DNA from: a virus
DNA: 23,809 nucleotides
Strand: one strand, 5' to 3'
Virus record (IMG/VR): IMGVR_UViG_3300034051_000039
Coordinates: 1 to 23,809 of that record
How positions within the stretch are numbered: the first letter of the stretch is position 1; every line of letters begins with the position of its first letter. This document shows positions 1 through 23,809 of this stretch, in pieces. The notes under the pieces were generated by a model that saw nothing but the letters and a program-made list of their open reading frames with translations, was not told the DNA's origin and did not search any database. The position numbers and the translations under genes are program-made.

Positions 1-25
1 TGGAATTTATTTTGTTTATTTGCAC

Positions 26-37
26 AAAACCAATCTT
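26..37 (+). promoter_or_regulatory. Leader motif AAAACCAATC before ATG 38
   Basis: AAAACCAATC (26-35) ends two bases before ATG 38. The same ten bases stand three bases before ATG 3120 and ATG 3497. The upstream bases 1-25 are T-rich (TTTATTTTGTTTATTTGC). It may be a translation initiation element or the 5' end of a shared leader. Confidence 0.5.
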
Positions 38-940
38 ATGCATCCAGACATCCTGTCCATTACGGACACAAGCCCGTATCTCGAACGGGCGCAAAAAGGT
101 TCCTACTTTGATATGGGACGAATCGGCAACGAGAAGATTGATGAGTTCCTGCGCTTCAAGGAGGGTGAGTTCATCGTCTGCACGGGTCACGCCAACGTGG
201 GCAAGACGCACACGATGTTCTATCTGATGCTGATGCAGTCCATCACCCACGGGAAGAAGTGGCTCTGCTATGCGGCGGAGAACGAGGTTCACTCCATCCA
301 ACGAAAGCTGATTGAGTTCCTGCACGCAAAGCCAATCAACTTGATTCCAGAGGCGAAGATGCACTCCGACCTGTGCTTCATTGATGAATACTTTAAGTTC
401 ATAAACCCGAACAAGATTCTCTCGGCATTCGAGCTGCTACAAATCTTCAACGAGGTATTGAACGAATGGCAGTACACGGGTGCCTTCATTGACCCGTACA
501 ACTCCCTGCGTACCGACCAGAGCGTATTGGGCAAAACCTCGATGCACGAGTACCACTATGAGGTAGCAAGTGCCTTTCGGGTGTTCTCACACAAGGAGAA
601 GGTCACCTTGATACTTTCCACCCACCCAGTCACGGAAGCAATGCGGAAGGTTCACCACGATAAGCACGAGTACGCCCGCCTCCCGATGCCTGTAAACATC
701 GCCGACATTGAACACGGGGGCAAGTGGGGAAACCGCTCTGACTGTGTAGTCGTAATTCACCGCTATTCGGGCCACCCTACCGACTGGAAGCATACCCACA
801 TCCACGTCCGCAAGGTCAAGGAGACGGAGACAGGAGGACGCATCACCCCTTATGACAACCCGATCGTGCTGACCTCGATGATGGGTAACGTAGGATTTAC
901 GATTGACGGACAAAATTTATTGAACTGTGTTGCCGTTTGA
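38..940 (+). CDS. RecA/DnaB-type replicative helicase-like ATPase
   Basis: This 300-aa protein is a P-loop ATPase of the RecA fold, probably the phage replicative helicase or a RepA/DnaB-like helicase. Walker A is GHANVGKT at residues 50-57. A Walker B-like strand ends in GAFIDPYNSL at 148-157, and a sensor-like STHP sits at 194-197. The segment DIEHGGKWGNRSDCVVVIHR further on is typical of phage DnaB-like ATPases. I chose the ATG at 38 because the motif AAAACCAATC lies two bases before it, as it does before two other starts here. A TTG at 20 would add six residues. No primase domain is present; one may lie upstream of the window. The RecA-fold ATPase call is firm, the helicase role is inferred. 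Confidence 0.8.
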   Translation: MHPDILSITDTSPYLERAQKGSYFDMGRIGNEKIDEFLRFKEGEFIVCTGHANVGKTHTMFYLMLMQSITHGKKWLCYAAENEVHSIQRKLIEFLHAKPINLIPEAKMHSDLCFIDEYFKFINPNKILSAFELLQIFNEVLNEWQYTGAFIDPYNSLRTDQSVLGKTSMHEYHYEVASAFRVFSHKEKVTLILSTHPVTEAMRKVHHDKHEYARLPMPVNIADIEHGGKWGNRSDCVVVIHRYSGHPTDWKHTHIHVRKVKETETGGRITPYDNPIVLTSMMGNVGFTIDGQNLLNCVAV

Positions 941-1184
941 GTTCTTCCTCCAGCAGAAGGTCATCGATCTTGGCACAACTGCCCAATGGATTTTGGAGCA
1001 GCACGGTTACGATGGGGCAAAGCACTTCAACAATGTCTTTGACGCCTCCCGAACCATCGAACAGTACCGACAATTTCACAACGAAATATCAATGAAATTC
1101 TACCAGATGTCAGTTGAGAAGCAGGCACTCGAACAGAAGGTCTTGCAACTTGAACTTGAACTCCAAAAAAAATATGAACTATAA
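927..1184 (+). CDS. Small hypothetical protein with C-terminal coiled coil
   Basis: This 85-aa protein overlaps the end of the upstream ATPase gene by 14 bases. It starts at GTG 927 or, one codon later, at TTG 930; there is no ATG near. The N-terminal half is mixed (FEFFLQQKVIDLGTTAQWIL). The last 35 residues form a heptad-like helix rich in E, Q, K and L (EKQALEQKVLQLELELQKK), which suggests oligomerisation. I recognise no family. Its place between a helicase-like ATPase and a DnaA domain IV-like protein suggests a role in replication, but that is only context. Confidence 0.6.
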   Translation: MLPFEFFLQQKVIDLGTTAQWILEQHGYDGAKHFNNVFDASRTIEQYRQFHNEISMKFYQMSVEKQALEQKVLQLELELQKKYEL

Positions 1185-1569
1185 AGATTTTTGCGTACTG
1201 GTCGACCATAAGGACGACGGCAGACGGACGCTTGTGAATGTCAAGGTGCGAGCAGCATTCGCACATTCATTCCGAAAGCGGTATAAATTGGTAGAGCTTG
1301 CAGAGCAAATGGGAAAGACCCACGCTACGGTGATTCATTATATGAACCTTGAGTTCAGAAAGGATGCCGAATACTGGAGATGCTACCAGATAGCGCAGTC
1401 AATAATCAATTCAGAGGAAGTAGTAGACACCCTTGACATTGATACTTTGGTCAAGGAACGTACCCAGATGCAGCAGCGTTTGGCGATGAAAACTACGGAA
1501 GTGGCTATGTTACAGGAGGAAGTGGTACATTTACGTCTAAAATTAGAGCGATTAAAGCAAATGATTTAA
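1174..1569 (+). CDS. DnaA domain IV-like helix-turn-helix protein
   Basis: A 131-aa protein starting at ATG 1174, 11 bases inside the preceding gene and just after an A8 run. Residues about 24-60 resemble the DNA-binding domain IV of the initiator DnaA: a helix with VRAAFAHSFRKRYKL, then ELAEQMGKTHATVIHY, where THATVIHY (49-56) matches the DnaA signature around D-H-T/S-T-V-x-H. No ATPase domain is present, so it is a stand-alone DNA-binding module. Residues 85-131 look like a coiled coil (TQMQQRLAMKTTEVAMLQEE). It may bind an origin or act as a regulator. The fold is a fair inference from the motif; the role is unknown. Confidence 0.72.
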   Translation: MNYKDFCVLVDHKDDGRRTLVNVKVRAAFAHSFRKRYKLVELAEQMGKTHATVIHYMNLEFRKDAEYWRCYQIAQSIINSEEVVDTLDIDTLVKERTQMQQRLAMKTTEVAMLQEEVVHLRLKLERLKQMI

Positions 1570-1601
1570 TATCGCAATTCTACGCAAAGAAGCGTAAGGT
1601 C

Positions 1602-2117
1602 TTGGTGAATTTCACGAAGGGTTACGTTGGCGTCGAAGTAGCCGAGGACGTGGTGCAGGAGGTGTTCATTCGCCTCTTGCAACTTGCCGAGGAAGGGAGA
1701 GTTCACTTCATCCAGAACGGAGAGGTGAACTTTTTTTTTGTGTACCGCTCCTGCATCAACCTGTGCATTAAACTTCAAAAGCAAAAGGAGAATTTGCACA
1801 AGCTGAACTTTGGGGATATGTACGAGTTGGATGAATGGCTCCGACAACCAGAGAATGAATACAACTACGAGGAGGACGTGGCCTACGAGCAGCTGCTGAA
1901 CTCCGTCAAGGATCAAGTCGAGGTCATCCGATGGTACGACCGTATGATACTGGAAATAAACCAAGAGATGAGCATCAGCGAAATGAACCGCTCCATCGGC
2001 ATCTCTCGTGACTCAATTCGCAACACATTAAAACAAGCAAAGAATGAAATCAGAACAAACATCCAAGCCGACTACGAAGCGTGGAAGAAAGCCAAAAGGG
2101 GCGGGAGACGTGATTGA
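1602..2117 (+). CDS. Phage sigma-70-like (ECF-type) factor with uncertain start
   Basis: From TTG 1602 this gives 171 aa. AEDVVQEVFIRLLQ (residues 14-27) matches sigma region 2. A C-terminal helix-turn-helix (SISEMNRSIGISRDSIRNTL, about 124-143) fits region 4, so it is probably an alternative sigma factor or sigma-like regulator that directs host RNA polymerase. The TTG start cuts off the first region 2 helix. The same frame is open further upstream and encodes a fitting SQFYAKKRKVLVNF segment, but without ATG, GTG or TTG. The best candidate is ATA at 1569, overlapping the TAA of the upstream gene as TAATA. A T9 run at 1731-1739 lies inside the gene. Family call moderately sure, start doubtful. 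Confidence 0.7.
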   Translation: MVNFTKGYVGVEVAEDVVQEVFIRLLQLAEEGRVHFIQNGEVNFFFVYRSCINLCIKLQKQKENLHKLNFGDMYELDEWLRQPENEYNYEEDVAYEQLLNSVKDQVEVIRWYDRMILEINQEMSISEMNRSIGISRDSIRNTLKQAKNEIRTNIQADYEAWKKAKRGGRRD

Positions 2118-2445
2118 AAGCATCACGGAAGCGACAGGAATCAAAGCAGCCGTTGAATGGTTCTCCGAGGTTACTGGAGTTGACTGCGGTTGCGATGCCC
2201 GCAAAGAGAAGCTGAACAAGTTGTTCCCTATCAAACAACCGCATTGCCTTGAGCAGGCGGAGTACACGTTCTTGGGAACCGTCTTGGGTAAGCACAAGTT
2301 GACCGCCATTGAGCGTGAGGAGATTGCTCGCATTCACGCACGGACTTTCCAGCACAAGATGGTTGTGCCTTGCACCTGCTCCCCTAAATTATGGGCTGGG
2401 TGGATTCGTGACCTCCAGAACTTATACGACACCTATGGTGAGTGA
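2044..2445 (+). CDS. Conserved small phage protein with Cys motifs
   Basis: A 133-aa protein that overlaps the end of the sigma-like gene by 74 bases in another frame. After a basic N-terminal tail (KPTTKRGRKPKG) comes DVIESITEATGIKAAVEWFS. Next is a Cys cluster (VDCGCDARKEKLNKLFP), and near the C-terminus a second one (VVPCTCSPK) followed by WAGWIRDLQNLYDTY. The arrangement GD-IE-ITEATGIK then D-CGC-RKEKLNKLFP is one I recall from Bacteroidota phages, where the protein has no known function. The four or five cysteines could bind a metal. The start is the ATG at 2044, which keeps the conserved part whole. Confidence 0.7.
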   Translation: MKSEQTSKPTTKRGRKPKGAGDVIESITEATGIKAAVEWFSEVTGVDCGCDARKEKLNKLFPIKQPHCLEQAEYTFLGTVLGKHKLTAIEREEIARIHARTFQHKMVVPCTCSPKLWAGWIRDLQNLYDTYGE

Positions 2446-2938
2446 TGCTCGCTGGGCGCAGTCCAGAGAGGTCGGAAAGCAGGGTGAGGAGAGTTTTGTC
2501 TTGGCTTGCGAAGCACTTGGGTACCGCTGCCGAAAGAGCAGCAGGCAAGAAGACATTGAATTGCACATTGACTATTGGGTAACCCGACCGCAAGGGGAGA
2601 CCTCTGTTGACGTCAAAGGACAGAAGAAGAACGAGGAGGTCTGGGTTGAGTTAAAGAACGTCAGAGGCCACGCAGGGTGGCTCTACGGCCACGCTGGGTA
2701 CATTGCCTTTGAGATGGCTTCGCTTGGTGGGTTTGTTGTGGTGTCAAGGTCGCAGCTGGCAGAGCTGATTGAGATAACAGTTGAGGAAGTGTTCGTCCGC
2801 AGGGACGATGCCTACCTCAAATTGTACCAACGAGATGACCGCCTTGATGTAATTACACGCATTGAATTAAGTGACCTTGAACTTTTACCAACTTTCAAAA
2901 TCATAAACTATGCCCATTCCAGTTCCCAAGCCCGCTGA
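2435..2938 (+). CDS. PD-(D/E)XK nuclease-like protein
   Basis: A 167-aa protein from ATG 2435, overlapping the previous gene by 11 bases. The same frame is open further upstream, but that segment (FTHGLSSTRWLCLAPAPLNY) looks like read-through of another frame. The fold suggested is a restriction-endonuclease-like core: GEESFVLACEALGYRC (acidic helix, residues 17-32), then IDYWV with D46, then SVDVKG with D59 and K61, and WVELKN with E72 and K74. The spacing D-(12)-D-V-K is typical of phage PD-(D/E)XK proteins. It could be a resolvase-like or repair nuclease. The nuclease fold is likely; the substrate is unknown. Confidence 0.72.
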   Translation: MVSDARWAQSREVGKQGEESFVLACEALGYRCRKSSRQEDIELHIDYWVTRPQGETSVDVKGQKKNEEVWVELKNVRGHAGWLYGHAGYIAFEMASLGGFVVVSRSQLAELIEITVEEVFVRRDDAYLKLYQRDDRLDVITRIELSDLELLPTFKIINYAHSSSQAR

Positions 2939-3053
2939 AACGCAGGAAAAATTCATCCAAAGATGCGTCTCAAATGACGTAATGAACACGGAGTTTCCCG
3001 ATGAAAAGCAAAGGATTTCAGTTTGTTACGCCCAATGGCGAAAAAAAATGTAA
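2910..3053 (+). CDS. Small phage protein of the RC-QR-CYxxW type
   Basis: A 47-aa protein from ATG 2910, overlapping the nuclease gene by 29 bases, ending at TAA 3051-3053 right after an A8 run. It reads PKPAETQEKFIQRC, then FPDEKQRISVCYAQW. This short module (acidic residue, F-x-x-RC, then P-D-x-x-QR-x-x-C-Y-x-x-W) recurs in many phages, either alone or at the end of head proteins, with no function known to me. Two cysteines flank it. Here it stands alone, far from the head genes. It is followed by a 66-base gap, so it may close the first transcription unit. Confidence 0.72.
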   Translation: MPIPVPKPAETQEKFIQRCVSNDVMNTEFPDEKQRISVCYAQWRKKM

Positions 3054-3106
3054 ATAATTTTTGGTGGTCTGGTTTTTTGTTTGTTACTTCGCTTCATCAA
3101 ACAAGT

Positions 3107-3119
3107 AAAACCAATCACA
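3107..3119 (+). promoter_or_regulatory. Leader motif AAAACCAATC before ATG 3120
   Basis: AAAACCAATC at 3107-3116 is followed by three bases and then ATG 3120. The gap 3054-3119 also holds a T-rich stretch with TTTTGTTT (3075-3082) that is also present at 10-17. A Bacteroidota-type promoter (TAnnTTTG) is only approached, by TAATTTTTG at 3055-3063. Confidence 0.5.
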
Positions 3120-3446
3120 ATGAAAACCCTACAAGATTATCTCAACGAAGAAGGCGGAGCGAATTATCTTTTCAACTGCGCTATGTATAATTTATTCTCA
3201 TCTTATAGCGACCGTGAATATGCTTCTATTTGTGGTTCGTTCTATGATGGCGTGGTTACTTGGGCAGACCACAACATTGATGACGTGGAGGAGGTTTGTA
3301 ATACAAAGTATAAGGGCTGGGTTCTTCACCTTTCGGAAGGTTATGTCGGCAAAGCTTACATCCCTAACTGGGTATTGAACCTTAACGTAAGCAACTATAA
3401 GCACGCCAAGTGCTTGTTCAACAAGTACATCAGAAAGGTTAACTAA
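3120..3446 (+). CDS. Hypothetical protein, 108 aa
   Basis: It starts at ATG 3120, three bases after the motif AAAACCAATC, and follows a real intergenic gap, so it may begin a transcription unit. A longer reading from TTG 3081 would run through the leader and is unlikely. The protein is rich in aromatic residues (YLFNCAMYNLFSSYSDREYA, then CGSFYDGVVTWADHNIDD and KYKGWVLHLSEGYVGKAYIP). It has four cysteines, no membrane segment and no motif that I recognise. The C-terminus is basic (FNKYIRKVN). It is likely a real gene because of its own leader and coding-like composition. No function can be named. Confidence 0.68.
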   Translation: MKTLQDYLNEEGGANYLFNCAMYNLFSSYSDREYASICGSFYDGVVTWADHNIDDVEEVCNTKYKGWVLHLSEGYVGKAYIPNWVLNLNVSNYKHAKCLFNKYIRKVN

Positions 3447-3483
3447 ATCAAAACGGGGAGCAGCATCCGAACAACTGCATCTT

Positions 3484-3496
3484 AAAACCAATCAAG
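3484..3496 (+). promoter_or_regulatory. Leader motif AAAACCAATC before ATG 3497
   Basis: AAAACCAATC at 3484-3493 is followed by AAG and then ATG 3497. It lies in the 50-base gap 3447-3496 after the 108-aa hypothetical gene. This is the third copy at the same place relative to a start codon. Confidence 0.5.
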
Positions 3497-3637
3497 ATGA
3501 ACAAACTCCAAAACATCATCATCGACATCACCGTCCCTTTGGCGTGGATGCTCATCCTGTCGGCTGCCTTCTTTGCAGTTGTACTCCTTCCTCAAATCAT
3601 ATTCGTTCAGCTATGCGACTGTCAGCCGACTTTCTAA
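3497..3637 (+). CDS. Small single-pass membrane protein
   Basis: A 46-aa protein starting three bases after the AAAACCAATC leader. After a short N-terminus (MNKLQNIIIDITV) comes one long hydrophobic helix (PLAWMLILSAAFFAVVLLPQ continuing to IIFVQL), then a short Cys-containing tail (CDCQPTF). It is therefore predicted to sit in the inner membrane with a single pass. Its stop TAA overlaps the next ATG as TAATG, which suggests coupled translation. A role in lysis (holin-like) or superinfection exclusion is possible from size and topology alone, but nothing in the sequence proves it. Confidence 0.65.
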   Translation: MNKLQNIIIDITVPLAWMLILSAAFFAVVLLPQIIFVQLCDCQPTF

Positions 3638-3888
3638 TGGACTATGCCGAGCGAATCGGTATCGCCCCAGAGGATGCAGGCCCTCGCACTTGGAATGAAA
3701 TCTTCGCCGACTGGGCAGGGTTCAAATCCGTAGACGATATGATACGATATGAGCTGCACGTTGATATTGACAACTGCGATGCTCCAGACGGCAAGTTCCA
3801 CGATGTGGACTTCGTTCACTACCCTTACGAACCAAACCTCCCGTTTGATGTGAACGAGATGTACAAGGCAATAGAGAAGGATTTATGA
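3637..3888 (+). CDS. Hypothetical acidic protein, 83 aa
   Basis: From ATG 3637, sharing TAATG with the stop of the membrane protein gene, this gives 83 aa. An in-frame ATG at 3613 would add MRLSADFL. The protein is acidic and aromatic (WNEIFADWAGFKSVDDMIRY, then DIDNCDAPDGKFHDVDFVHY). It has no motif I recognise and no membrane segment. It ends in an ATGA overlap with the next gene. Its acid-rich surface resembles small inhibitor or mimic proteins of phages, but that is speculation. Confidence 0.62.
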   Translation: MDYAERIGIAPEDAGPRTWNEIFADWAGFKSVDDMIRYELHVDIDNCDAPDGKFHDVDFVHYPYEPNLPFDVNEMYKAIEKDL

Positions 3889-4094
3889 TGCCCCGTATAT
3901 TCAAAGAGCTTGTGACCCGTGAATGCACGGACTGCAAGGAGGTAGTGGCAGGCAATTACTTCACGCATTGCAAGCGCACCAACAAGAACGAGGTGGTGTA
4001 CTATCAGCGTTCAGATTGCAAATTCTGTCGAGCAAAGAAGGAACGTGACCGCAGGGCAGCATCCAAAAAAAAGTCAAACGTACAGACCATATGA
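3885..4094 (+). CDS. Small zinc-ribbon-like protein
   Basis: A 69-aa protein with two Cys pairs. TRECTDCKEV near residue 14 gives one C-x2-C pair, and SDCKFCRAKKERDRR near residue 45 gives another, with HC between them (YFTHCKRT). This fits a treble-clef or zinc-ribbon domain, followed by a basic tail (RRAASKKKSN) that could bind nucleic acid. It looks like the zinc-finger part of HNH proteins, but the HNH residues are missing. ATG 3885 and ATG 3888 are both possible starts. It overlaps the genes on both sides by four bases. The methyltransferase follows directly. Confidence 0.65.
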   Translation: MMPRIFKELVTRECTDCKEVVAGNYFTHCKRTNKNEVVYYQRSDCKFCRAKKERDRRAASKKKSNVQTI

Positions 4095-4747
4095 GAGCGG
4101 ACATAATACACGGAAACTGTCTGGAGGAACTGGCAAAGATTGACCTCAATTTAATCAATCCAGTATTCGTGAGCGACCCTCCGTTCAATGTTGGGTATAA
4201 GTACGCAACATATAAAGACAGAATGAAGGAGGCGCAATACTATCAGATGCTCGCTTCAGTTTTTTCAGCTCATCCTCACGTCTTGATTCACTACCCAGAG
4301 CAACTGCACAGGTACTCGATTGAAATTGGAACAATGCCCTCAAGGGTGGTGAGTTGGGTATATAATTCTAACACGGCAAAACAACACAGAGACATCGCCT
4401 TCTATAATGTGTCTCCAGATTTCAAGCAGTACGGGCAGGAGTACAAAAACCCAAAAGACAAGCGAATAGCAAAGCGAGTCGAGGAAGGAAAGAAAGCCCG
4501 CCTCTATGATTGGTGGCAAATCAATCAAGTCAAGAATGTAAACAAAGACAAGACAGACCACCCCTGCCAAATGCCACTTGAAGTGATGCGGAGGATTGTC
4601 GGAGTTCTTCCCGCTGGAGTTACTGTCATAGACCCATTCCTCGGAAGCGGAACAACTGCTCTCGCTTGTAAGCAACTGGGAGTCCCATTCATCGGAATTG
4701 AGATGGATGAGAAGTATGTCGAGATTGCAAAAAAAAGAATACAATGA
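4091..4747 (+). CDS. DNA methyltransferase, N6-adenine/N4-cytosine type
   Basis: A 218-aa protein of the N6_N4_Mtase family, which transfers a methyl group from S-adenosylmethionine to an exocyclic amino group in DNA. The catalytic motif IV is DPPF at residues 29-32, the form usual for adenine enzymes. The cofactor-binding motif I, DPFLGSGTTALACKQLG, comes later, at 181-197. Motif IV before motif I defines the beta class. HPCQMPLEVMRRIV just upstream of motif I is the usual helix for this family. No partner restriction enzyme is adjacent, so it is probably an orphan phage methylase protecting phage DNA from host restriction. It overlaps both neighbours by four bases (ATGA). The target sequence cannot be read from the protein. 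Confidence 0.92.
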   Translation: MRADIIHGNCLEELAKIDLNLINPVFVSDPPFNVGYKYATYKDRMKEAQYYQMLASVFSAHPHVLIHYPEQLHRYSIEIGTMPSRVVSWVYNSNTAKQHRDIAFYNVSPDFKQYGQEYKNPKDKRIAKRVEEGKKARLYDWWQINQVKNVNKDKTDHPCQMPLEVMRRIVGVLPAGVTVIDPFLGSGTTALACKQLGVPFIGIEMDEKYVEIAKKRIQ

Positions 4748-5523
4748 AAACAATCAAACTTCTTGACGGCTCCATCTGGGACACCGTCACCCTCAAAGAG
4801 AAGATGCTGGACGATTCGTTCTACTACGGAGACCTCGGCCGCACGGCTCTATCAAGCAGCGCAGCAAAGCTCCTGCTTCAATCCCCAAAGACGTACCACT
4901 ATGTGACGAAGTACGGACAGGAGGATTCCGATGCCTTCTCCGTTGGGCGTCTGGTTCACTTGATGGTATTGCAACCCGATCTCGTAAAAGAGTACGAGGT
5001 CATCGATGTGCAATCCAAGAACACCAAGACGTGGCAAGAGGCAAAAAAAACAGGAGCCAAAATCATCACGGCAAAGGAGTTCAGCGAAGCCGAAAGAATC
5101 GCCAACGCACTTCTCCGCAATGAGCAGGTGATGGACTACGTTAACGACTGCGAATACGAAGTTCCCCAAGTGGGAACTATTGGAGGCCTGCCCTTCCGTG
5201 CGAAGGCGGACATCTACACGAGCGGGTTTATAGCAGATTTGAAGACCACAACAGACCTTCGTGCCTTCCCCTTTTCAGCACGAAAATATTCTTATGATAT
5301 GCAAGCGTTTATCTACACCCGACTCTTTGGAGTGCCGATTGACAAGTTCATCTTCATCGCCATCGACAAGGCGTCCCTTGATATTGGAATCTACACGGTC
5401 TCTCCAGAGTTCGTGGCGGAAGGAGAGCGCAAAGCGCACGAGGCGATTGAACTGTACAAAGAGTTCTTCCTCGGAAATGACAACCCAGAGCTTGACTCCT
5501 ACACCATCATCGGTCAACTTTAA
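4744..5523 (+). CDS. RecE/exonuclease VIII-like PD-(D/E)XK nuclease
   Basis: A 259-aa protein of the phage exonuclease family related to RecE/exonuclease VIII (DUF3799-like). GRLVHLMVLQPD at residues 68-79 is the usual helix holding the conserved GxxxH. FRAKADIY (151-158) supplies an acidic metal ligand, D156, and IADLKTTTD (163-171) supplies D165-x-K167. Q186 in SYDMQAFIYTRLFG is the further family-typical glutamine. It is expected to resect double-stranded DNA ends for recombination or replication, usually with a single-strand annealing protein, which I do not see here. It starts in an ATGA overlap with the methyltransferase. Family call confident, in vivo role inferred. Confidence 0.88.
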   Translation: MKTIKLLDGSIWDTVTLKEKMLDDSFYYGDLGRTALSSSAAKLLLQSPKTYHYVTKYGQEDSDAFSVGRLVHLMVLQPDLVKEYEVIDVQSKNTKTWQEAKKTGAKIITAKEFSEAERIANALLRNEQVMDYVNDCEYEVPQVGTIGGLPFRAKADIYTSGFIADLKTTTDLRAFPFSARKYSYDMQAFIYTRLFGVPIDKFIFIAIDKASLDIGIYTVSPEFVAEGERKAHEAIELYKEFFLGNDNPELDSYTIIGQL

Positions 5524-5533
5524 TCCTTACAAA

Positions 5534-5749
5534 ATGAAAATAGACCACATCGCACACTTCTGGGCAGGTATGGCAATCCTTGCCGTTACGGGTAGCTGGC
5601 CGCTTCTTATTGCAGCAGCATTCGGGCGTGAATTAAAAGGCATCCTGCTGGACAAACGAACGGACTACGATGATAGCGTCTGGGACGTGGTATACACTTT
5701 GGCTGGTGGCCTTGCTGCAATGTTAGCTCAATTCTTGTTTGCCTTATGA
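5534..5749 (+). CDS. Small membrane protein, YfiM/VanZ-like
   Basis: A 71-aa protein from ATG 5534, ten bases after the exonuclease stop. It has two hydrophobic stretches: HFWAGMAILAVTGSWPLLIAAAF near the start and VVYTLAGGLAAMLAQFLFAL at the end. Between them is a polar turn, GRELKGILLDKRTDYDD. The order DHIAHFWAG, then GRELKG, then DSVWDVVYTLAGG resembles small YfiM/DUF2279-like membrane proteins, in which D-H, K/R-E and D residues are conserved. Location is the inner membrane. A lysis-related role is conceivable but not shown. The gene ends in an ATGA overlap with the next one. Confidence 0.68.
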   Translation: MKIDHIAHFWAGMAILAVTGSWPLLIAAAFGRELKGILLDKRTDYDDSVWDVVYTLAGGLAAMLAQFLFAL

Positions 5750-5964
5750 AAGCGATTCTTGAGTTCAATTTGCCCGATGACGAGCAAGAGTTCAGCGATG
5801 CGACCAACGGAGGGATGTACAAACACGTCCTCTGGAAACTTGACCAAGACCTTCGTGGAAAGATGAAGCACGGGATGCTGAACGAGTGCGAATACAGTTG
5901 CTACGATCAAGTGCGTGAGGACATCCGTAACCTGTTGCAGGTTCACAATTTGAATATAGAATGA
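5746..5964 (+). CDS. Conserved small phage protein (MKAxLEFxLP family)
   Basis: A 72-aa protein beginning MKAILEFNLPDDEQEFSDAT, followed by VLWKLDQDLRGKMKHG and a C-terminal helix VREDIRNLLQVHNLNIE. This pattern (MKA-L-F-LP-E--EF--A, then LW-LDQ-LR---K) is a common small phage protein in many host groups, found in accessory or early regions, with no established function. A distant relative is encoded at 7509-7739. It overlaps both neighbours by four bases. The family resemblance is from memory, not from a search. Confidence 0.72.
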   Translation: MKAILEFNLPDDEQEFSDATNGGMYKHVLWKLDQDLRGKMKHGMLNECEYSCYDQVREDIRNLLQVHNLNIE

Positions 5965-6119
5965 AGACACACATCCAAGAACTGATGGCTCTTTATCATC
6001 TGCTTGACGAAATCGGTCAAATCATAGATTCCGAGAATAGCGGCCTATCCGCAGAGCAGCGATTGAGCGAGATTGAAAGAACGATAAAAAAACTATTTCA
6101 AAACACCAAAGAGAAATGA
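5961..6119 (+). CDS. Small helical hypothetical protein, 52 aa
   Basis: This gene reads MKTHIQELMALYHLLDEIGQ, then SENSGLSAEQRLSEIERTIK and ends KLFQNTKEK. The whole protein is predicted to be two amphipathic helices separated by a loop, a helical hairpin that may dimerise. It sits in a chain of overlapping genes (ATGA at both ends), which supports it despite its size. I recognise no family. Confidence 0.62.
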   Translation: MKTHIQELMALYHLLDEIGQIIDSENSGLSAEQRLSEIERTIKKLFQNTKEK

Positions 6120-6343
6120 GCGAAGTCCGCCCCGATCACTACAAGCAAAATAACAAAGAGGTGTGGGAAATGATGCTTGACATCTGGGGGCCTGCTGCCT
6201 TCATTGCCTACTGTGAAATCAACGCCTTCAAATATCGAATGCGAGCAGGACGCAAACCCAATAACCCAATCGAGCAGGACATTCTCAAGGCACAATGGTA
6301 CGAGGGGAAAGCCAGCGAAATAGCAAGAATCGAAAATGAGTAA
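6116..6343 (+). CDS. DUF3310-like phage protein
   Basis: A 75-aa protein with the marks of the DUF3310 (SaV-like) family: RPDHYKQNNKEVWEMMLDIW at the start, FIAYCEINAFKYRMRAGRK in the middle and DILKAQWYEGKASEIARIE at the end. The family hallmarks PDHYK, KYRxRxGxK and D-x-x-KAxWY are all present. The length matches the usual compact form. Members are common in phage nucleotide or replication clusters and have been called nucleotide kinase-like, though I know of no proven activity. It overlaps its neighbours by four and eight bases. Confidence 0.85.
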   Translation: MSEVRPDHYKQNNKEVWEMMLDIWGPAAFIAYCEINAFKYRMRAGRKPNNPIEQDILKAQWYEGKASEIARIENE

Positions 6344-6584
6344 TGCGATTTGGATGCTTGACCTTGAGGTATCGTACACCAAGAGCAAAAAGAAGCACAC
6401 AAAAAAGGTCTGGGCTTCCTCCAGATGGGAGGAGTTTCGCTCGGTAGTCAAGGACGAGGAGTGCATCGAGCAAATCAAATCCCGCTACGACTTACAGACG
6501 GCAACTGACTTCCGCATCACAAAAGTCCTCGGAGCGGTTTATTTAGGTGAGCGTTATGGTAAAACACAAGAAGGTATACTTTGA
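6336..6584 (+). CDS. Hypothetical basic protein, 82 aa
   Basis: It starts at ATG 6336, eight bases inside the DUF3310 gene. The sequence begins MSNAIWMLDLEVSYTKSKKK, with a beta-rich N-terminus and a run of lysines, then WASSRWEEFRSVVKDEECIEQ and a C-terminal ITKVLGAVYLGERYGKTQEG. It has one cysteine, no membrane segment and no family that I recognise. It overlaps the HNH gene by 29 bases. Coding-like composition and the tight packing support it. Confidence 0.62.
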   Translation: MSNAIWMLDLEVSYTKSKKKHTKKVWASSRWEEFRSVVKDEECIEQIKSRYDLQTATDFRITKVLGAVYLGERYGKTQEGIL

Positions 6585-21580: not shown

Positions 21581-23576
21581 CATTCGCCTCGTTCAGTTCG
21601 AGTCCTACGTTGCACCTGCAATCGTAGAGAACCCCCGCCTTGATTGGGTGGAATATGGGGATGACAACAACTACTACCAGTACCTCATTGACCGCAGGAA
21701 CGGGTCTGCTACGAACAATGCCGTAATCACGGGTATCGTGGATATGATATACGGAAAGGGTCTGGACGCTACCGATTCGGCTACCAACCCGTCCGCATTC
21801 CTTGAGTTCCGCAGGTTGATCTCGGAGGAGTGTGCGTACCGCTTTGCAAATGACGTGTACTGGCTCGGCAACGGAGCTTTGCAGGTCTTGTGGAATGCTG
21901 ACAAATCAGCAATCGCAGAGGTGACGCATATGCCAGTGCAGACATTGCGAGCCGAGAAGTGCGACCAAGATGGAACCATCAAGGCATACTACTACGCTTG
22001 GGACTGGACGAAGGTTCGGAACCGCTCTGGAGTGCAGCGCATCGCCGCCTTTGAGGAGTCCAACGAGAAGCGTGAAATCTTCTACTACCGCCCCTATTCG
22101 GCAGGTTCGTACTACTACTCACCCCCTCGTTACTTGGCGGCTCTGCCGTATGCGGAGTTGGAGGAGGAGATTGCAAACTACCACATCAATAACATCAAGA
22201 ACGGACTCGCTCCGTCGATGATTATTAACTTCAATAACGGCATCCCACCACAGGAGGAGCAGGACAATATCAATTCCACCATTGCTCAAAAGTGGCAGGG
22301 AAGCACTAACGCAGGACGTTGGATTCTTGCGTTCAACGATGACAGCACAAAAGCGGCTACGATTGAGCCAGTCACCCTATCCGACGCCCACTTGCAGTAC
22401 GAGTTCCTTTCTTCAGAGTCCGCTCAAAAGGTTCTTGTAGGCCACCGCATCACGTCTCCGATGCTCTTTGGTATCAAGGAGAACACGGGGCTTGGAAGCA
22501 ATGCGGACGAAATCAAGAACGCTTACTTGCTTTTGGACAATACGGTGATTCGTCCTATCCAGATGGGCATCTTGAAGGCATTTGACGAGCTTCTTGCGGT
22601 GAACAATGTCTCTTTGAATTTGTACTTCAAGCCGCTCTCTCCGATGGAGTTCAACGACATCAAGGTCACGGACTCCACAACAGTCGAAGAAGAAACTGGA
22701 GTGAAGGAAGCCGACCAAGTGACTACGGAAGTGGTATCTACCGTGAACGAGGAAATCGCCCAGAAGGAGGCATCGTACAACGGAGCGCAGATTGCGTCCT
22801 CTCTGGACATTATGCGAGCCGTACAGGAGGGCGTTCTTACCCAAGACCAAGCAATCACCTTCCTTGTTCAGATGCTCCAGTTCGAGCCGTCTGTTGCGAA
22901 GGCGTTATTCGCTGGGAACTCCTCTGCGGTCATCACGCAAATGAAGTCGCAAAAAAAGCTTGAAGCATCATCCCCTGCCTCCGAGGAGTTGGTGCGTGAA
23001 TTGACCTCGCTTGGTGAAGACGAGGATTTGGAGGAGTGGGAACTGGTCGGTGACGAGCAGCTTTCCGAGCAAGATATCGTAAAGATGCGGGAGGTGAACT
23101 TCGCATCCACAGGAAGCGCATTCCCGAACGCCAAGAGCGCACAAGACGGCGTAACGAAAGAAGGGTTCAAGTACAAGGTTCGGTATGCTTACGCAGGCGA
23201 AAAGAAGGGTGAGCGGGAGTTCTGCAGTTTGATGCTACAAGCGAATAAAATCTACCGCATTGAGGACATCGAAGCGATGAGCGGTAAGGCCGTGAATGCA
23301 GGATTCGGAAAGAACGGAGCAGCCACTTACGACATCCTGTTGTACAAAGGTGGCCCGAACTGTCATCACTTCTGGATGCGTAAGACGTACCTCTCAAGAG
23401 CGAAGGGAGTGACACCCGACCCCAAGAACAAACGCTCCGAGGTGAGCGTCAACGACCTCCGCAAGTTGGGAGTGAAGTTACCAGTCAATGATTCGTTAGT
23501 CGCCAAACCGCCTATCTCGCAGGACTATCGGGGCTACACTCCCGAATACGCAAAAAAGATAGGTATCCCCAAATAA
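21570..23576 (+). CDS. Portal protein with C-terminal accessory domain
   Basis: A 668-aa protein. The first about 380 residues fit phage portal proteins: VEYGDDNNYYQYLIDRRNGS, NAVITGIVDMIYGKGLDAT, VYWLGNGALQVLWN, FYYRPYSAGSYYYSPPRYLA, then GHRITSPMLFGIKENTGLGS and NADEIKNAYLLLDNTVIRPI. After a charged linker comes a distinct domain from about residue 507: FASTGSAFPNAKSAQDG, REFCSLMLQANKIYRIEDIE, NAGFGKNGAATYDILLYKGG and CHHFWMRKTYLSRAKG. This module is common as the C-terminus of head proteins in Bacteroidota phages and may be a minor head domain. A portal this far from the terminase is unusual. It starts in an 11-base overlap. Confidence 0.85.
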   Translation: MENNIRLVQFESYVAPAIVENPRLDWVEYGDDNNYYQYLIDRRNGSATNNAVITGIVDMIYGKGLDATDSATNPSAFLEFRRLISEECAYRFANDVYWLGNGALQVLWNADKSAIAEVTHMPVQTLRAEKCDQDGTIKAYYYAWDWTKVRNRSGVQRIAAFEESNEKREIFYYRPYSAGSYYYSPPRYLAALPYAELEEEIANYHINNIKNGLAPSMIINFNNGIPPQEEQDNINSTIAQKWQGSTNAGRWILAFNDDSTKAATIEPVTLSDAHLQYEFLSSESAQKVLVGHRITSPMLFGIKENTGLGSNADEIKNAYLLLDNTVIRPIQMGILKAFDELLAVNNVSLNLYFKPLSPMEFNDIKVTDSTTVEEETGVKEADQVTTEVVSTVNEEIAQKEASYNGAQIASSLDIMRAVQEGVLTQDQAITFLVQMLQFEPSVAKALFAGNSSAVITQMKSQKKLEASSPASEELVRELTSLGEDEDLEEWELVGDEQLSEQDIVKMREVNFASTGSAFPNAKSAQDGVTKEGFKYKVRYAYAGEKKGEREFCSLMLQANKIYRIEDIEAMSGKAVNAGFGKNGAATYDILLYKGGPNCHHFWMRKTYLSRAKGVTPDPKNKRSEVSVNDLRKLGVKLPVNDSLVAKPPISQDYRGYTPEYAKKIGIPK

Positions 23577-23591
23577 GGTTATATAACTATG
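23577..23591 (+). promoter_or_regulatory. Leader motif GGTTATATAACTATG
   Basis: Immediately after the portal stop, the 15 bases ending in ATG 23589 match the leaders at 10858-10872 and 21161-21175. Thirteen of 15 positions fit a fixed GGTTWTATANNTATG pattern. Third copy of the late-region motif. Confidence 0.55.
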
Positions 23592-23809
23592 TATCCCCTA
23601 TTCATTTCCCCCGATGACCTCGTAAAGCGCACCGCCATCAACGGCAACGTTGACCGTGACCAGATGGTGCAGTTCATCAAGATAGCCCAAGATATTCACG
23701 TCCAAGCACTTCTTGGTACTGCCTTGTACAACGCCTTGAAGAACGACGTGCTGAATGACACGCTGACAGGCAACTACGAAACGCTGATGACCGACTATGT
23801 GCAGGACGT
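23589..23809 (+). CDS. Head-tail connector-like protein (partial)
   Basis: The first 73 codons of a gene cut by the end of the window. It reads MYPLFISPDDLVKRTAINGN, then VDRDQMVQFIKIAQDIHVQA and LLGTALYNALKNDVLNDTLT. The order FIS-DDL---T-I-GNVD-D-----I-AQ---I--LLGT-LY is typical of the DUF6712-like head-completion/connector proteins of Bacteroidota phages, which sit after the portal. Its own leader motif precedes it. C-terminal end and exact role cannot be seen. Confidence 0.72.
   Translation, partial: MYPLFISPDDLVKRTAINGNVDRDQMVQFIKIAQDIHVQALLGTALYNALKNDVLNDTLTGNYETLMTDYVQD

Follow-up and report, generated by a model that had tools for sequence, protein, structure and literature searches.

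Why should the same ten bases, AAAACCAATC, stand just ahead of three start codons of one virus? The question is raised by IMG/VR virus record IMGVR_UViG_3300034051_000039, analysed here over its whole length of 23,809 nucleotides (nt; "the window", which is the whole virus record). We consider it probable, and hold with good confidence, that this leader is the target of an antisense RNA encoded by the phage, which would act in trans and most likely block translation initiation. The antisense small RNA (sRNA), its duplex with the leader and the repression are put forward from sequence, and the pairing can be strongly inferred. The features concerned are listed below, with the energies of the predicted duplexes.

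26..35, + strand: leader copy 1 (AAAACCAATC), 2 nt before the ATG of a helicase-like gene
38..940, + strand: gene 1, DnaB-like helicase / primase-helicase (PHROG 18375, E 1e-31)
3107..3116, + strand: leader copy 2 (AAAACCAATC), 3 nt before ATG 3120; predicted duplex -13.0 kcal/mol
3120..3446, + strand: gene with leader copy 2, 108 amino acids, no assigned function
3484..3493, + strand: leader copy 3 (AAAACCAATC), 3 nt before ATG 3497; predicted duplex -13.4 kcal/mol
3497..3637, + strand: gene for a small hydrophobic protein of 46 amino acids, whose orthologues have AAAACCAATC, AAACACCTAAAA or ACACACAC as leader, by phage loop type (see below)

The original prediction, made from the window alone, had described three exact copies lying 2 or 3 nt before these ATGs, and both statements are confirmed. 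All three copies are on the + strand, with none on the - strand and none of the reversed pattern anywhere in the window. Chance would supply 0.06 copies per window, and none of 100 dinucleotide shuffles reached three. Allowing one mismatch adds two sites, 328 and 18518, both within coding sequence and neither ahead of a start; the remark that no further copy precedes a start in the window thus holds.

The partner of the leader lies outside the window, in an SSB-like gene directly upstream of gene 1 that is present in near-identical contigs. One of these, L004, matches window positions 1-6583 at 99.8% identity, and its positions 1-393 match window 23417-23809 at 96%; the window record seems to be missing a stretch of about 6.5 kb that includes the SSB-like gene. 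An antisense copy of AAAACCAATC starts within the stop codon of that gene (...CCT TTC TGA TTGGTTTT). The stop codon falls in the loop of a predicted RNA hairpin at about L004 6735-6777, roughly 110-150 nt before window position 1. The loop reads TGATTGGTTTT, and GATTGGTTTT within it is the exact complement of the leader; leader copy 1 would be the 10-nt target of this anti-leader loop (L004:6755-6765), with a predicted duplex energy of -11.6 kcal/mol.

To follow the loop through relatives of the phage, we used loci fetched with gene 1, the 3120 gene and the terminase (L004-L166), to which more distant phages were added by searching with SSB-like proteins. The SSB-like gene was found in 213 of 289 loci; five of its ends are cut, which leaves 208 readable 3' ends comprising 81 distinct sequences. 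Every one of the 208 carries one of three loops, here called Z (114 ends; TTTCTGATTGGTTT(T)), Y (63 ends; TTTTAGGTGTTTC) and X (31 ends; TTTTAGTGTGTGTGTTTTTT). The hairpin folds better than shuffled sequences in 7 of 7 members tested (z -2.5 to -5.6). Both stem arms vary between lineages with pairing kept, as in GAGTCACC/GGTGACTC, GAGGTGCC/GGCACCT and CAACGACC/GGTCGTTG, and further in GTCCG/CGGAC, GCAGTCCT/AGGACTGC and CCAGTC/GACTGG. In all 81 distinct ends the loop word is predicted to be enclosed by a stem, with at least 5 enclosing pairs in Z, 8 in X and 3 in Y; in some Z members a few short pairs are also predicted within the loop. The hairpin is usually followed by a terminator stem with a T tail; among the distinct ends, a downstream run of at least six T residues is present in 45 of 50 for Z, all 8 for X and 21 of 23 for Y. 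L004 has a G/C stem after the hairpin without a T run, and then a tRNA-like element.

That element (L004:6806-6869, about 50-120 nt before window position 1) lies between the hairpin and gene 1 and has a cloverleaf fold, a CAT anticodon loop and a short D arm; it scores 26.2 bits against the Rfam tRNA model, whose gathering score is 29, and ARAGORN makes no call. The corresponding position in a Y phage (L201:6477-6598) holds a longer stretch that has an extra insert and ends resembling those of a tRNA (GTCGGG...GGTTCGATTCC...CCCGAC), again with no ARAGORN call. A tRNA-derived origin for the hairpin itself was rejected: ARAGORN finds none there, and the tRNA-like element of L004 is a separate stretch downstream. 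Equally, the conserved CCTTTC of the loop was considered as a mimic of the 16S rRNA 3' tail and dropped; since it encodes the PF with which the SSB-like proteins end (10/10 in one alignment, 9/9 in another), its conservation needs no RNA explanation.

The strongest argument for pairing comes from the way in which leaders change with loops. The more distant relatives, whose loops are TTTTAGGTGTTTC and TTTTAGTGTGTGTGTTTTTT, have leaders that match their own loops (AAACACCTAAAA and ACACACAC, respectively). We counted gene starts with at least 9 nt of perfect complement to each loop among 247 X, 419 Y and 1285 Z genes. X genes yielded 18 with loop X and 0 with either Y or Z; Z genes gave 194 with their own loop against 0 and 0 with the others, and Y genes 21 with loop Y, 0 with X and 6 with Z. 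Similarly, the proper leader word precedes 12 starts in X, 13 in Y and 120 in Z, whereas off-code words number 2, 3, 2, 3 and twice zero, mostly before short, doubtful open reading frames. The orthologue of window gene 3497 illustrates the pattern, having AAACACACACACA before its ATG in X, AAACACCTAAAACA in Y and AAAACCAATCAAG in Z. When 8-mers were scanned along 145 nt of the SSB-like gene end, the loop was the peak in every clade (158 starts versus a median of 2-3 in Z, 29 versus 2 in Y, 17 versus 0 in X). A count of 7-mers before starts that made no use of the loop ranked ACCAATC as the commonest enriched word for Z and ACACACA for X; the Y leader did not stand out in it. Predicted duplex energies favour the own loop in 8/8 leaders compared, clearly so in 7; in X gene 1 the own loop beats loop Y by just 0.3 kcal/mol. 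In a tree of 88 distinct proteins, for which the bootstrap is not settled, loop type needs three changes, with X forming one fully supported clade and Z found at both ends of the tree. Altogether, co-variation of loop and leader in three lineages argues strongly for loop-leader pairing, and we regard it as the decisive evidence.

The relatives were also scanned for the motif near starts, as the original prediction had suggested. Of 163 loci, 111 contain exact copies of AAAACCAATC, 406 in all, most of which share the strand of the gene and lie 2-6 nt before an ATG; the genes concerned are many and different. Collapsed to 188 distinct contexts (115 loci with a matching loop), 155 are associated with starts, defined as lying at most 8 nt before an ATG or GTG that opens a reading frame of at least 30 codons; 22 are antisense at the SSB-like stop and 11 are neither. 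Permuted ten-mers, used as background, averaged 3.6 copies; one permutation had 70, with 62 before starts, and is presumably the leader word in a shifted register. Grouping the starts with ACCAATC by protein gives 31 families. Two or more distinct proteins are present in 19, and chance reading frames may account for some of the single-member ones. The largest families are the SSB-like protein, gene 1, the 46-amino-acid protein, a RecE-like exonuclease and a 60-amino-acid protein. The 3120 gene has three distinct starts among Z-loop loci, with an ACCAATC leader at each. A role as an early-gene leader, one of the three originally offered, is thus supported: in many related phages the word precedes genes of the replication/early region, namely those for a DnaB-like helicase, the SSB-like protein, an exonuclease and small early proteins.

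Viral contigs were also scanned with the Z loop word. Among the matches listed, 39 of 114 new loci have an SSB-like gene, and all 39 have the ACCAATC word at most 8 nt before an ATG or GTG. The other 75 of the 114 listed are without an SSB-like gene and were taken as chance; one counted among them, L345, has an SSB-like tail before the Z loop word, yet no leader. At four sites (L033:15081, L041:10211, L087:7125 and L284:10018) the leader word is followed by GTTGCATTTTTTGCAAC, a small palindrome, instead of a start codon.

How could such a pair of words operate? The antisense RNA would be the 3' end of the SSB-like mRNA, or an sRNA cut from that end: a hairpin over the stop codon, mostly followed by a terminator with a T run, is an architecture resembling that of sRNAs derived from 3' untranslated regions (UTRs). 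Of the features expected of an sRNA, we found a defined 3' end (the T-run terminator), a pairing word in a predicted single-stranded loop, and extended complementarity of that loop to several mRNAs encoded elsewhere. The RNA would target several early genes on other transcripts, in whose leaders the loop TGATTGGTTTT would pair with AAAACCAATC and often with one to three additional bases on the AUG side. As the SSB-like mRNA accumulated, this would create a feedback turning the early genes down. Since the 5' arm of the hairpin is coding, ribosomes finishing the SSB-like gene would open it, and the loop may be available only on untranslated mRNA or fragments. The SSB-like gene carries a leader in Z and none that matches in X or Y; action on other transcripts therefore appears to be the conserved part.

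The duplex would span about -14 to -3, reaching the start codon in some genes. In Flavobacterium johnsoniae, initiation depends on the bases at -3, -6, -12 and -13 and on an unstructured region (PMC6847099, in excerpt). Because the duplex would lie where initiation relies on such bases and on low structure, blocking is the simplest reading. The host is likely to be one of the Bacteroidota, given that the window terminase is closest to those of Flavobacterium psychrophilum phages (about 40% identity), with Phocaeicola phages next. A collection of 50,697 phage records contains nothing close to the window and gave no tblastn match to the SSB-like protein, and the SSB-like alignment found no relative among genome contigs, hence no host or prophage by that route.

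Predicted promoter boxes (TAnnTTTG/TAnnTTAG) are enriched upstream of leaders, standing before 70/200 in Z, 13/14 in Y and 34/38 in X. Conversely, 130/200 Z leaders have no box within 50 nt; the signal would thus work within operons too, which fits translation better than transcription. The same boxes bear on the sign of the regulation. Where a leader is near a box, as many are, pairing would occur near the 5' end of the transcript, where duplexes can protect mRNA, and the pairing data do not give the sign. The antisense RNA could accordingly protect the 5' end, open the start region or recruit ribosomes, so that pairing would activate; we judge this rather unlikely.

Several observations weigh against regulation by the proposed antisense RNA or limit how far it can be taken. 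Repression is itself a guess from the position of the leader. The 10-bp duplex is modest (-11.6 to -13.4 kcal/mol) and no RNA chaperone is known for it. Contigs of different loci overlap, so that locus counts are not independent, and the eleven Z-word contexts that are neither at starts nor antisense fit poorly. Y phages have few leader-bearing genes, and Y gene 1 mostly has no leader in its 5' region, L237 having one; its first codons, AAACACC, are able to pair with the loop, but since some Y members read AAACATC this may be chance. One Y-loop phage, L228, has a Z-type leader (L228:6074) before a Z-like copy of the 3497 gene, perhaps through a recent exchange between lineages. Shuffling the loop was a weaker control than swapping it, most of all for the repetitive X loop, whose low complexity let one shuffle in 50 score above the real loop at 9 nt (22 versus 18) and at 10 nt (9 versus 8); for the Z loop, one shuffle had a count of 144 at 9 nt, yet 14 versus 182 observed at 10 nt. 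Finally, the label "SSB-like" is our inference. Five N-terminal strands are predicted and the structural model has a mean pLDDT of 69.1, but its matches to OB folds are non-significant (best E 0.18), and the protein has no Pfam match at E 0.01, matching only PHROG 993, whose function is unassigned.

The original prediction had also named an operator, a proposal that survives as a target site for antisense RNA, which the evidence favours over a site in DNA. A phage protein binding the ten base pairs near early promoters would account for the enrichment of promoter boxes, and a change in its specificity could in principle move all sites together. Orientation, however, is fixed: the sense and antisense words occur before starts 139 versus 16 times in Z, where a loop followed by ATG or GTG may explain part of the 16, and 13 versus 1 times in Y, the X word being an uninformative repeat. 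Besides the 130/200 Z leaders with no box within 50 nt, those that do have one are separated from it by anything between 2 and 41 nt, unlike the distance from leader to ATG, which is mostly 2-6 nt, and the antisense copy lies in the loop of an RNA hairpin whose arms change on both sides. An RNA target is favoured, then, by an antisense copy in a conserved loop, a fixed orientation, a fixed distance to the start codon and not to the promoter, and the joint change of loop and leader in three lineages; a DNA operator is very improbable.

Two further accounts have still less to recommend them. Pairing could be confined to the SSB-like mRNA, its 5' leader meeting its own 3' end as in icaR mRNA, with the other leaders unrelated. 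The Z SSB-like gene does have the leader, but in X and Y this gene is without a matching one while other genes there have it, and leaders occur in many other families; pairing purely in cis was dropped on the former ground and we give it hardly any credence. It is similarly hard to believe that the leader serves purely to enhance translation in a host that makes no use of Shine-Dalgarno pairing, the remaining role named originally. An A-rich sequence near the ATG does resemble what favours initiation in Bacteroidota (PMC6847099, in excerpt). Leaders are nevertheless wholly different between related phages, each matching the loop of its own phage, and such a match would not be expected of a sequence that the ribosome reads as an enhancer; taken alone, this role leaves the matching loops unexplained. 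A Shine-Dalgarno site, discounted from the outset in the original prediction, is dismissed for want of any GGAGG-like word in AAAACCAATC that could serve as complement to CCUCC at about -5 to -10.

Returning to the antisense RNA, its loop and leader may have a further role, which we advance tentatively and think doubtful, as an RNA identity code with one word per phage lineage. The antisense RNA of one phage would then shut the early genes of a co-infecting phage with the same word and spare those of a phage with another. Such a code would diverge under selection between phages, as an RNA analogue of repressor-based heteroimmunity; we saw no sign of lysogeny in these phages.

Two other elements of the window deserve mention. 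The sequence GGGGAGCAGCATCCGA(A/C)CAACTGC is conserved at window 3455-3480 and in L140, directly upstream of a leader copy, and could form a small hairpin. Positions 1602-2117 possibly encode a sigma-factor-like protein (weak Pfam Sigma70_r2 match, E 0.004, under the curated cut-off); the frame is open upstream of its first usual start, overlaps the preceding gene and contains a run of nine T residues.

If the proposal is true, one phage antisense RNA controls a whole set of early genes through a shared start-codon word, and does so in phages whose hosts, probably Bacteroidota, belong to a phylum in which Shine-Dalgarno pairing is rarely used. The matched words of the three lineages, a different one in each, amount to a natural compensatory-mutation experiment of a kind rarely available for an sRNA regulon. 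They make directly testable how such phages might switch off early genes without a known repressor protein, and they offer three apparently orthogonal RNA control parts.

We found no description of this leader/loop system in open-licence PubMed Central papers; the papers listed by literal searches for the words were all unrelated, and searches on phage sRNAs in Bacteroidota nothing on this system. Membership of a known RNA family was rejected, as no Rfam family reaches its gathering score in the window plus ten relatives; presence of the c4 model was judged there by absence of a match only. Within L004:6700-6930, at E values up to 1, the only Rfam match is to tRNA.

Parts of the arrangement nonetheless have precedents. 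In Bacteroidota, hosts in which Shine-Dalgarno pairing is rare, the Kozak-like A-rich starts (PMC6847099, in excerpt) involve the very region ahead of the AUG where the leader lies; they reflect a general preference of the ribosome, whereas here a ten-base word tracks the loop of a phage RNA. In Staphylococcus aureus, a word in the icaR 3' UTR pairs with the start region and controls translation (excerpt of PMC3868564). That concerns one mRNA; here the pairing appears to act on other transcripts. OppZ and CarZ of Vibrio cholerae are sRNAs derived from 3' UTRs that exert feedback on their own operons (PMC9438474, in excerpt; PMC7398697). Like them, the RNA proposed here would come from an mRNA 3' end, their 5' ends often being near the stop codon, and act on start regions (PMC9438474, same excerpt). 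They differ in being encoded by the host and dependent on Hfq and RNase E, whereas this RNA would be phage-encoded with no known chaperone, and its pairing word is displayed in a hairpin loop over the stop codon.

The closest likeness is to the c4 antisense RNA of phages P1 and P7, whose complementary sequences, likely in loops, bind around the target ribosome-binding site and block translation (excerpt of the review PMC12197685). The RNA proposed here would likewise be a phage antisense RNA with its pairing word in a loop and a start region as target; the known function of c4 is in heteroimmunity. Unlike c4, which acts on an antirepressor mRNA, the single loop described here matches many early-gene leaders, those of a helicase, the SSB-like protein, an exonuclease and small proteins without assigned function. 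It moreover overlaps the stop codon of the SSB-like gene, and three codes are known in which loop and leader have evolved together. By analogy, then, the system would work like c4, but as a multi-gene, co-evolving leader code.

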